NCBI GenBank assembly: GCA_030295235.1
Contig: AP026136.1
Span: 558,001 to 622,000 of the forward strand
Direction: 5' to 3'
DNA length: 64,000 nucleotides
Source of the DNA: Fistulifera solaris
Lineage: Eukaryota > Bacillariophyta > Bacillariophyceae > Naviculales > Stauroneidaceae
The notes under the pieces were generated by a model that saw only the letters and a list, made by a program, of their open reading frames with translations, was not told the origin of the DNA and made no database searches. This document shows positions 51,153 through 56,298 of this stretch, in pieces; the first letter of the stretch is position 1; each line of letters opens with the position of its first letter. The position numbers were made by a program, and so were the translations under genes.

Positions 51153-52157
51153 ATGAAACAATCATCATCAAGGCAGATTATCCCAGCGAGGCCCGACGAA
51201 GGCTGCAGCGAGCTTCTTGGTTTTTTGGCAGTGAGTCTTGTCACTGTGCCTGTCATTGGTTTCAATGTTTTGCTCCTGCTGGGATTTTATTTGTACCCCA
51301 AGCACGTGGGCCTTTTCGTCATTCTCCCATACTACACGTATATCTTGGCTTTGAGTCGGCCAGAACGAAAATACTCGGCGCGATGGGAATGGTTTTCGCG
51401 GAACTTTCCGCTTTTGCAAACCTTTCGACGATACCTTCGCATGAAAGTGATTGTTAATGACAAATTGAAGGATGCGCAAAGTAAAGAACACGCTCAATTC
51501 TTGTTTGCTGTTTTTCCTCATGGGTGTAATTCGGACTATCGCATAGCCCTGGACGGTATGCTGTTTGATGCTGTACCAAATGTGGCTAGGAACGTTACGT
51601 CGTTGGCGGCCACTGTGCTCTTTCGAATACCGCTGGTCCGCGAGCTGGCACTTTGGACAAATTGTGTCGACGCCAGTCGAAGTGTAGCGGATAATCTCCT
51701 GCACAAGGGAAAGTCGATCCTTGTTTTGCCGGGCGGACAAGCCGAACAAATTCATACTGTCTATGGACGAGAGATTGTATACTTGAAGAAGCGAAAAGGA
51801 TTTATCAAACTCGCCATGACACATGGTGTCCCTGTCGTACCGGGGTATGTTTTTGGGGCATCTGATTACTTTTACACGTCGTCGTTTGCTCTTAACTTTC
51901 GTTTGTGGCTGGTCAAAACCCTGGGAATTTCCATTCCACTGGCGTTTGGTCAATACTTTACGCCTCTGTGCCCAAGACCGGTCGCTACTACTATTGTATT
52001 TGGTGATCCCATTCGCTTTACAACAAAGATCGATAGACAACCAATTGTAGAAGAGGTCGACCAAGCTCACGCACAATTCTGTTTGGCATTGACTTGTCTT
52101 TTCGATCATCACAAAAAGGAATTTGGTTACGGTGACCGCGTGTTGGAAATCTGCTAG
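51153..52157 (+). CDS. DGAT2: DGAT2-family acyltransferase, copy 2
   Basis: ATG 51153 (MKQSSSRQIIPARPDEG) is the first in frame and gives 334 residues. The same parts as in copy 1 are seen in order: two spans (LGFLAVSLVTVPVIGFNVLL, HVGLFVILPYYTYILAL), FAVFPHGCNSDY, RIPLVRELALWTNCVDASR, LPGGQAEQIHTVYGRE, KKRKGFIKLAMTHGVPVVP and FGDPIRF. The shared FPHG and the shared end (GYGDRxLEI) show a tandem duplication; the Ser-rich N-tail of copy 1 is absent here. Antisense open frame 51168-52112 is a shadow. Confidence 0.87.
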   Translation: MKQSSSRQIIPARPDEGCSELLGFLAVSLVTVPVIGFNVLLLLGFYLYPKHVGLFVILPYYTYILALSRPERKYSARWEWFSRNFPLLQTFRRYLRMKVIVNDKLKDAQSKEHAQFLFAVFPHGCNSDYRIALDGMLFDAVPNVARNVTSLAATVLFRIPLVRELALWTNCVDASRSVADNLLHKGKSILVLPGGQAEQIHTVYGREIVYLKKRKGFIKLAMTHGVPVVPGYVFGASDYFYTSSFALNFRLWLVKTLGISIPLAFGQYFTPLCPRPVATTIVFGDPIRFTTKIDRQPIVEEVDQAHAQFCLALTCLFDHHKKEFGYGDRVLEIC

Positions 52158-54258: not shown

Positions 54259-55146
54259 TCATCGATTCTCTAGATATGAAGCAATTATTTTCAAGGACTC
54301 AGTGCTGCTGACTTCCGTGAAACATGTCACATCACTCTTCGCTCGTTTGCGATGGTCTGGTCTCAAAACCCAAACATCCAGGCATATCTTGCTCTTATTT
54401 TGTCCCTGTAGCATGTATCCTACTAACTTCTGGATAATTTCGGGAAGAGTTCGTTTCCTTATTTTTTCATAACGGTCAATCAAATATAACAGAAGGCGAT
54501 CTTGATCTCTCCCCGCGCAGCAGAAATAACAGTCTTCTAAGCCACCACCAGGGTCCGTTCGAAACAAACGCGACGGGCCTACGGTCTCGCCGTGCGATGG
54601 ATCTCTTCCCAAAACAATGGCCGTACATCCCAATGGCCTAGCTCCTCCAGATCGTGTTAATGTGTGCTGAATAGCAGCAGATTGCTGAGCCGCTTCCTCC
54701 ACAGTCATGGGCTCACCATACGATAGCTTATGCTGTCGAGCCGAAGATCGCAAATACGCGGCCAGAGTCCTGGCGTCCCCAGATAAACCCGCCGTGAAGA
54801 GCCATAGGTGATCATCGATGCGGTGGACTTTTGCTGAGCGTGTGGCTCTCTCCTTGGGCTGAGCCACTAACACAATAATGCTTCCGTTATCGGCTAGAAA
54901 GGCCATTATATTCTCCCCGCGCTTGGTTGCCTCAATGCTGTATTCTACCTGAAGTAAACGACCGGAAGGATCGAATGTAGTAATTGATCTGTCGTAGCGT
55001 TGTTGACTGTTTGCATTTTTGGATACTTCGATTCGCCGGCGCGAGTGGGCGGCTTGAGCATTCTGTACTATCAAAATGAAGAAGAAACAAAAAAGCTTCC
55101 AGCAAAGATATCTTTCGATTGATCTTCTCATTCTATTACGATACAT
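54259..55146 (-). CDS. Divergent proteasome alpha-type subunit with N-terminal signal peptide
   Basis: From ATG 55146, 295 residues; in-frame ATGs at 55131 and 55254 are alternatives, and the true start is uncertain. The canonical alpha signature, RYDRSITTFDPSGRLLQVEY, is complete and the Ntn-hydrolase fold continues (ENIMAFLADNGS, RIDDHLWLFTAGLSGDAR, GGARPLGCTAIVLGRD, RLFRTDPGG), but later parts differ from the seven standard subunits. Before the signature is a basic n-region and a hydrophobic core (LFCFFFILIVQNAQA, then AHS), a good signal peptide without Phe at +1. In diatoms this pattern directs proteins to the ER, outside, or the periplastid space rather than to the stroma. No intron with acceptable borders could remove the hydrophobic segment. 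The other two alpha genes of the window lack any leader. Confidence 0.8.
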   Translation of the reverse strand: MYRNRMRRSIERYLCWKLFCFFFILIVQNAQAAHSRRRIEVSKNANSQQRYDRSITTFDPSGRLLQVEYSIEATKRGENIMAFLADNGSIIVLVAQPKERATRSAKVHRIDDHLWLFTAGLSGDARTLAAYLRSSARQHKLSYGEPMTVEEAAQQSAAIQHTLTRSGGARPLGCTAIVLGRDPSHGETVGPSRLFRTDPGGGLEDCYFCCAGRDQDRLLLYLIDRYEKIRKRTLPEIIQKLVGYMLQGQNKSKICLDVWVLRPDHRKRAKSDVTCFTEVSSTESLKIIASYLENR

Positions 55147-55629
55147 GATCGACTTCTTTGACTTGTTTGTGAAGGATGCAGAATGCAGCAGTTTGTTGTG
55201 GTTTGTCGCCTGGTCGTGATAAAATGCGATTGTGTGCCGGCGTGCCTCATCCATTTAGGGTTAACGCTAAGTACTACGTAGGATAACGCATCACTCGACG
55301 CTACGCACGCAGGGCGAACGCGCTCTCTGTCTGCCAACCGGTCAGGCGGAAAGCTAGTACACAGTATGCACTATAAAGTAGACACCTCGTCGCAGTCGCA
55401 GAGTGACGTTTTCATTTCGGCCATTTTTGCCATTCGAACGAACCGACGACGAAAAAGCGTCACCCTGCACCCTGCCCATTTCAACGACTGCTGGTTGTTG
55501 TCAATCGACTTTCTACTTCAACTTGCAATGTATGCAAGTCGGGGTTCCGAAGTAACTGAGGCGATAGAGCACAAGACAACAACACACATCCGTTAAGCTG
55601 TAATTGTTCAATAGAGTTTGTCGACTACC

Positions 55630-56298
55630 ATGAAAAAGTGTTTTCTGCTTCAGCTTTTCGCTATCGAAATTCTTCAATTGACCCCTGCCTGTATAGGCTT
55701 CTTGGTCCCAGCAGCACAGGGCCTTACATTTCGAAGAAAATATGATTTATTCGCAGCCGAACACGAAGTTATTGATCCATTAATTAAAAACCAGTCGCTG
55801 TACGAAAAGTTAGAAAGTGTCGAAATAACGCCCTCGCCCGATCTTCCCGAGTCCCCACCTCTCTCCTACGACAAATTCCTCACGATGCAGGACAAGAGGG
55901 TCGTAGTAACAATTCGATACTCACAAGGTGCCGGCCTACGACCCTATTTTCTCACTGTGGCCAAGAAAATCAAGTCGTCGCACCCAGATGTTGTTCTGGA
56001 GCGTCTCATATTACCCGGTGTTTTAGATGCCGATGAGGAGGCCACCTTCGAAGTGCTGGTAGATGGTCGTGTCGTCGTTGGAAAAGGAAGATCTTCCAAG
56101 CAAAAGGTCGGTCTGGTAGATATGACCCATGCGCGTAGTGTGTTTGTTTCCATGAAAGAGCTCGATGTGGCAATCTCACGATCTCGACGCAAACGACGAC
56201 CATCGACAGCTTACGGAGGTGAGAAGTCTCCCAGTGGAGTTGCTCGTAAGGAAATGTTAAGGAGGCTTAAAGAAGGGATGCAAGGGAAGGGTGAATAG
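55630..56298 (+). CDS. Plastid-type SelT/SelW/Rdx-like protein lacking the CxxC/U motif
   Basis: ATG 55630 gives 222 residues. The leader ends in LTPACIG then FLVPAAQG, an ASAFAP-like site with Phe at +1. Residues 95-165 follow the Rdx/SelW pattern: a first strand and turn (VVVTIRYSQGAGLRPYF), helix (LTVAKKIKSSHPDVVLE), then EATFEVLVDGRVVVGKGRSS. In redox-active relatives the turn is C-x-x-C or C-x-x-U; here it is S-Q-G-A-G, so no thiol chemistry is possible there. The C-terminus is basic and Arg-rich (SRSRRKRRPSTAYGG, KEMLRRLKEGMQGKGE). Fold assignment is moderate; function unknown. Confidence 0.66.
   Translation: MKKCFLLQLFAIEILQLTPACIGFLVPAAQGLTFRRKYDLFAAEHEVIDPLIKNQSLYEKLESVEITPSPDLPESPPLSYDKFLTMQDKRVVVTIRYSQGAGLRPYFLTVAKKIKSSHPDVVLERLILPGVLDADEEATFEVLVDGRVVVGKGRSSKQKVGLVDMTHARSVFVSMKELDVAISRSRRKRRPSTAYGGEKSPSGVARKEMLRRLKEGMQGKGE

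Follow-up and report, generated by a model that had tools for sequence, protein, structure and literature searches.

A gene for a proteasome subunit preceded by a leader raises the question of which particle the subunit belongs to and where that particle works. The gene lies in a window of 64,000 nucleotides, that is, the whole stretch of DNA analysed here, from Fistulifera solaris, a diatom described as allodiploid. The question touches on a puzzle of secondary plastids, the remnant cytoplasm of which keeps a protease, yet spares ubiquitin-tagged imports. This remnant, the cytoplasm of an engulfed red alga, is the periplastid compartment (PPC), and an uncoupling of import by the symbiont ERAD-like import machinery (SELMA) from 20S degradation has reportedly been predicted, to go by the title of Stork 2012. 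The answer proposed is that the gene very probably encodes an alpha4-like subunit of a second 20S proteasome working in the PPC. The near-complete parts list obtained, with active-site and pocket status, makes the puzzle testable and shows that the subunit is one of several, not an isolated oddity.

The gene occupies a minus-strand open reading frame at 54259-55254, which contains three early in-frame ATGs and encodes 331 amino acids from the first of them. Proteasome loci of this genome fall on paired contigs, in this case C12 (the window) and C11. In the C11 homoeologue an in-frame stop stands directly before RNRMKRS, the frame being open only from RNRMKRSLERL... onwards, and the third ATG (window position 55131) is therefore the sole start shared by both copies. 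As judged from this comparison, translation most likely begins there and yields 290 amino acids, the first 41 codons of the frame being probably noncoding. The two copies are 91.4% identical over these 290 amino acids, with a dS of 0.34 and a dN/dS of 0.13, a ratio which speaks for a working gene. Furthermore, the gene reads through as a single open frame in the two copies alike, so that there is no need to postulate splicing that would take the leader out. The first-pass annotation had thus located the frame exactly and seen no plausible intron of that kind, on both of which it was right, although the extent that it gave probably includes the 41 noncoding codons. It had also recognised an alpha-type proteasome subunit, in agreement with the profile matches, which pass the curated cut-offs with E values of 3.5e-25 for PF00227 and 1.5e-11 for PF10584; the basic n-region, the hydrophobic core and the AQA-AHS end that it described ahead of the alpha signature RYDRSITTFDPSGRLLQVEY are all present, and so are the ordinary PSMA4 and PSMA6 genes of the same window, which are found as PF00227 matches (Table 1) and for which these class names are presumed from sequence motifs.

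Table 1. Coordinates of the features discussed (window positions unless a contig, C, is named)
Feature	Position	Strand	Basis or remark
Leader-bearing proteasome alpha-type gene	54259..55131	-	Probable coding part, starting at the third ATG; 290 aa and a stop
Upstream ORF extension, 41 codons, two further in-frame ATGs	55132..55254	-	Closed in the C11 homoeologue
Predicted signal peptide, residues 1-27, MRRSIERYLCWKLFCFFFILIVQNAQA	55051..55131	-	Leader rules and family conservation
AHSRRR motif, residues 28-33, putative start of mature or periplastid-targeting segment	55033..55050	-	Family conservation
Alpha-type N-terminal signature PF10584 (YDRSITTFDPSGRLLQVEYSIEA)	54928..54996 (C12:612928-612996)	-	Profile match
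Lys101, equivalent of archaeal K66, activator-pocket lysine	54829..54831	-	14 residues before conserved G80, as in 1pma
Proteasome fold PF00227	54376..54924 (C12:612376-612924)	-	Profile match; AlphaFold mean pLDDT 88.6
Ordinary cytosolic alpha3 (PSMA4, presumed class), PF00227	3228..3788 (C12:561228-561788)	+	Comparison
Ordinary cytosolic alpha1 (PSMA6, presumed class), PF00227	22589..23143 (C12:580589-581143)	+	Comparison
Leader alphas	Present gene (alpha4-like), C5:1149461 (alpha2-like), C15:696579, C17:1067986, C24:340631, C7:232854		
Leader betas	beta1 C1:2029902, beta2 C4:61060, beta3 C25:838521, beta4 C3:29230, beta5 C38/C39 near 405k, beta6 C4:1147734		
Two extra Cdc48 paralogues	C8:546358-548400 and C23:506355-508330		

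No F. solaris protein was 100% identical to the predicted product among the matches listed, the best reaching 92%, whereas its alpha2- and beta2-type leader partners are 100% identical over their length to F. solaris FisN_4Hh448 and FisN_5Lh029; for this reason the gene may be absent from the public annotation of the species. As regards its surroundings, 498 bases separate its start codon from that of a divergent neighbour on the plus strand (55630-56298), the protein of which has a leader followed by CIGFLVP, looks plastid-targeted with a Phe near +1, gave no Pfam match at E 0.01 and has a body that we take to recall a SelT/Rdx-like fold. The plus-strand gene at 51153-52157 encodes a protein resembling, by eye, a DGAT2-type acyltransferase, of interest in an oil-rich diatom.

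The signal peptide, called by leader rules together with conservation, has the hydrophobic core LFCFFFILIVQ and a predicted cleavage site between AQA and AHS. A search of 5.8 billion proteins provided a family of 121 sequences (the best 120 of 130 relatives plus the F. solaris protein), 105 of which retain 12 or more residues ahead of the cleavage point. Among these 105 N-termini, position -1 is Ala, Gly or Ser in all, 103 contain a hydrophobic core, and position +1 is Ala in 104 and Thr in one, Phe occurring in none, so that by rule and conservation alike a signal peptide is followed by a residue other than Phe. The exact motif AHSRRR follows the predicted cleavage in 68 of the 105, and the most frequent residues at +1 to +6 reach frequencies of 0.99, 0.93, 0.90, 0.95, 0.86 and 0.96 (mean 0.93, 110 non-gap rows). 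By comparison, in the leader-bearing alpha2-like family (best 120 of 181 relatives), which served as control and was counted by residue number with the cleavage site not fixed, the top frequencies at residues 25-29 are 0.21-0.46, rising only at 30-32 beside the fold. As the motif is not common to this second leader family, AHSRRR probably does something more than targeting. Residues 26-48 have a pLDDT below 50 in the AlphaFold model, and no description of the AHSRRR tail was found in the open-licence literature searched, though it may be published elsewhere.

Scoring of the leaders against cytosolic subunits, an imperfect control, gave 1.62-3.05 in the ten leader sequences with N-termini and 0.17-1.87 in the cytosolic subunits, the latter comprising 8 of 14 (alpha2, alpha4, alpha7, beta1, beta2, beta3, beta6 and beta7) scored from a chosen ATG, the other six being exon pieces devoid of an N-terminus. 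The two ranges overlap at the alpha2-like subunit of C5, whose leader is the weakest (1.62) and could be cut before Trp27, which by the +1 rule would point to the stroma.

With respect to the class of the subunit, the profile matches together with the fold hits make it a proteasome protein of the alpha type. AlphaFold gives it an alpha fold, and with Foldseek proteasome entries fill the best 50 rows throughout, including the alpha4 chains 1g0u_C (Pre6) and 6qm7_D. Within its own genome, where the cytosolic subunits bear class names presumed from sequence motifs, the best phmmer match is alpha4 (80.4 bits, 38.6% over 158 amino acids), followed by alpha7 (60.4 bits); the best 60 PDB sequences include Pre6 and PSMA7 chains, behind one spinach and several archaeal alphas. 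In describing the rest of the protein as divergent from the seven standard subunits, the first-pass annotation was correct but overstated the case, alpha4 being best by sequence and among the best PDB sequence and fold matches. A tree of 39 rows (15 of the 121 family members, 12 of 120 alpha2-like sequences, 7 cytosolic alphas, the 4 other leader alphas and 1 archaeal sequence, sampled without red algae) united the 15 rows in one clade (98/95) and the alpha2-like leader family in another, placed the four other leader alphas on long branches (3.51-6.32), and left the deep forks unsettled, including the place of the clade relative to cytosolic alpha4. Since the tree thus does not recover this family as the sister of cytosolic alpha4, it is by pairwise scores and fold hits that the subunit is assigned to alpha4. 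A leaderless cytosolic alpha4 is present at C1:2535895 and C2:2369169, of which the leader-bearing gene is a paralogue.

The subunit is not alone in carrying a leader. A PF00227 profile search of the whole genome (51.7 Mb, 61 contigs) found 66 matches at E 0.001, a number that rose to 77 at E 10; they comprise cytosolic alpha1-alpha7 and beta1-beta7 and an HslV-like gene, all presumptively assigned by eye and sequence motifs, together with a second, leader-bearing set. This set has at least 12 genes, 6 of alpha type and 6 of beta type, beside the cytosolic ones; each has its leader in frame in at least one homoeologue, and all loci recur on the paired contig. The beta classes are those of the best score against the cytosolic set of the same genome, while among the alphas that of C5 comes nearest to alpha2, with alpha4 only slightly behind, and those of C15, C17 and C24 are of ambiguous class in the PDB comparison. 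Relaxing the limit to E 10 added the leader alpha of C7/C8, as well as a partial, broken duplicate of leader beta6 at C4:1105119-1105367 that still shows AFVAADFDPYQLN. A seventh leader alpha and a leader beta7 were not found with PF00227 to E 10, nor did a beta7 query give any new locus, so that at the sensitivity used the complement amounts to 6 alphas and 6 betas against the 7 + 7 of a full set. The eleven further leader-bearing genes support one of the two readings that the first-pass annotation had offered, a dedicated proteasome-like particle reached by the secretory route, and speak against the other, a lone alpha-fold protein with a new job; the leader-bearing beta subunits for which it had suggested searching the genome do exist, six having been found.

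Some of these frames are interrupted. In beta5, leader and mature part share one frame in C38 (405510) but are shifted by single-base differences in C39 (404554), and the C23 copy of the C24 leader alpha is broken above the fold, its leader being out of frame. Single-base length differences of this type, breaking proteasome frames in one homoeologue only (C38/C39, C23/C24, C3/C4), suggest residual indel errors in the assembly. Leader beta1 changes frame near NQHF in both homoeologues (C1:2029902-2030449, C2:1908548-1909095) with no plausible intron of usual size; possible reasons are misassembly of the two copies, a very short intron or frameshifting.

The residues of the leader betas indicate what such a particle could do. 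Residue 45 in beta1, beta2 and beta5 selects for acidic, basic and hydrophobic peptides, respectively. The leader-bearing beta1, beta2 and beta5 keep T1, D17, R19 and K33, and at residue 45 they have R, G and M, just as their cytosolic counterparts in this genome do. In the leader beta2 family (best 120 of 1314 relatives), T1, D17, R19, K33 and G45 are kept in 120 of 120, the GSG (S129) pattern in 119 and the D166-S169 pattern in 106, and 76 of the 120 rows pass the hydrophobicity cut before T1. To judge from these residues, the catalytic leader betas look competent. Moreover, the dN/dS between homoeologues was 0.10-0.32 in 11 of the 12 leader genes, against 0.01-0.13 in 8 of the 14 cytosolic genes, with leader beta5 and cytosolic beta2 unpaired, five cytosolic genes left out and several comparisons made on partial frames; these values imply that the leader set evolves faster but under constraint.

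From the leader, the family, the partner genes and the active-site and pocket residues, all of them read in the DNA itself, we infer a course of events. The subunit would be made in the host cytosol, enter the ER by its signal peptide and be cleaved before Ala28, and its basic AHSRRR segment, with no Phe at +1, would let it cross the periplastid membrane and stay out of the stroma. Once in the PPC, it would form a ring with the other leader alphas, stacked on leader betas with three intact active-site types, and the resulting particle would be proteolytic and work without a dedicated 19S cap. The pocket to which this subunit contributes its lysine would be the likeliest docking site for the HbYX tail of an activator such as a PPC Cdc48.

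Other destinations and roles have to be weighed against this course. A core in the ER lumen, or secreted, would be compatible with the same N-terminus, since ER, secreted and PPC proteins are not told apart simply by a signal peptide and a subsequent basic segment lacking Phe at +1. Basic residues placed immediately behind the cleavage site do, however, fit a PPC targeting segment, and the heterokont 20S subunits with signal peptides are described, in the available passages of PMC5070193 and PMC5756292, as PPC proteins, two of which have been localised, so that such a location is unlikely. The plastid stroma is to be given next to no credence: plastid presequences likewise consist of a signal peptide and a basic segment, but the family (best 120 of 130 relatives plus the F. 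solaris protein) shows Ala at +1 in 104 of 105 N-termini and Phe in none. Diatom stromal proteins need Phe, or another aromatic residue or Leu, at this position.

A solitary alpha-fold protein, or a ring made of alphas alone, that has taken on a new and non-proteolytic job would account for the high divergence of the four other leader alphas, evident from their branch lengths, and for the failure to find one leader alpha and beta7 in the searches described; nevertheless, the presence of six leader betas, three with T1, D17 and K33 and one of these invariant at these positions across its family sample, makes this very unlikely. It would be still harder to sustain, and is held to be extremely improbable, that the gene is a variant of cytosolic alpha4 whose leader goes untranslated owing to a later start, or an annotation artefact, given that both homoeologues and about a hundred relatives retain the leader and AHSRRR and that cytosolic alpha4 has a gene of its own, lacking this leader, at C1:2535895. 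The PPC proteasome thus remains the preferred reading.

How a capless core in the PPC might be fed is suggested by its activator pockets. According to the portion of PMC10349142 available, activators with an HbYX tail direct their C-terminal carboxylate to K66, the K66A change prevents activation by PAN, and P17 and G19 are also involved. In the numbering of 1pma, residue 66 is K in the alpha4-like leader subunit, R in that of C5, S in C15, P in C17 and in C24, and V in C7, while among the cytosolic alphas K is found in alpha2-alpha6 (that of alpha6 by eye), alpha1 having H and alpha7 R. The lysine is kept in 91% of the 121 family rows (best 120 of 130 relatives plus the F. solaris protein), and residue 66 is R in 120 of 120 alpha2-like leader rows (best 120 of 181). 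A different lysine, that of the 'EKR/DKK' stretch after strand 2 (K in 9 of 106 non-gap rows of the 121), had been considered as K66 and was rejected, the 1pma count placing K66 14 residues before G80; a loss of the pocket lysine in this subunit was likewise discarded, its equivalent being kept. In the alpha2-like family (best 120 of 181), the canonical Tyr26 is replaced by Arg in 93% of the 120 rows, and P-Q stands after strand 2 (P in 120 of 120, Q in 97%), strongly conserved features that set the family apart from all seven cytosolic alphas in this genome. The key pocket lysine thus seems to be gone from most leader alphas, and of the pockets the one served by the lysine of the alpha4-like subunit is apparently the best preserved. 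No description of this pattern, with K66 only in that subunit among the leader alphas, was found in the open-licence literature searched, though it may be published all the same.

A partner for this pocket can be proposed. Besides cytosolic Cdc48 (C17/C18), the genome encodes two close paralogues, 64% and 60% identical to it over the D1 region, one ending in ...EEDFYS, which fits HbYX, and the other in ...IGDDD. PF16450 gave 10 matches in 5 locus pairs, with no second Rpt set, and UMP1 has one locus pair. Plastid-bearing heterokonts usually have two symbiont Cdc48 (sCdc48) variants, one with HbYX and one without in most species that have both, and it has been suggested that Cdc48 handing substrates to a capless core might matter (PMC5070193, in the passages available). 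The FYS and DDD paralogues, candidate symbiont forms, fit this published pair, and the K66 retained on the alpha4-like subunit would suit the FYS tail of the candidate PPC Cdc48. More tentatively, because among the six leader alphas residue 66 is K only in this subunit and because its near-invariant AHSRRR N-terminus would lie near the pore, the gate and the best HbYX dock could both reside on it, serving the FYS-tailed PPC Cdc48 instead of a 19S cap; we regard such a one-dock core as possible but rather doubtful. If true, it would be a natural asymmetric, Cdc48-fed 20S proteasome. With betas that look competent and a docking surface that seems mostly lost, the alpha4-like subunit being the apparent exception, the pocket asymmetry is the part deserving experiment.

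The cytosolic and nuclear 20S alpha4 (human PSMA7, yeast Pre6) has in common with the leader-bearing subunit the fold, the YDR signature, the equivalents of G19, Y26, L81 and K66 and the best sequence score. In contrast to it, the leader-bearing subunit adds a signal peptide and an 18-residue segment (28-45) starting with AHSRRR before YDR, its family has an altered, mostly shorter loop from strand 2 to K66, and the P17 equivalent is retained in just 47% of that family (best 120 of 130 relatives plus the F. solaris protein).

As to the particle, a 20S-only proteasome imported by signal peptides is already reported for the PPC of plastid-bearing heterokonts in the accessible parts of PMC5070193, which cites Moog 2011, Stork 2012 and Lau 2016 for it, and of PMC5756292, where diatom periplastid proteasomes are given as 20S with the 19S cap lost. 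Since a capless PPC 20S proteasome is already published, the present gene is a further case of a known system, and what the present analysis adds is the F. solaris parts list, the AHSRRR tail and the pocket pattern. The heterokont system agrees with the F. solaris set in its host-encoded 20S subunits with signal peptides, paralogous to the cytosolic ones, and in having no 19S cap described; it differs in being known from other species, and the tail and the pocket pattern are not met in those portions of the two accounts. The cryptophyte periplastid or nucleomorph proteasome is similarly an additional proteasome housed in a compartment of this type but, in the same portion of PMC5756292, a 26S particle, degradation genes being found in the nucleomorphs of several cryptophytes. 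Finally, SELMA shares with the PPC 20S core the compartment and the Cdc48 motor, of which two extra paralogues occur here, the difference being that SELMA imports proteins whereas the 20S core degrades them.
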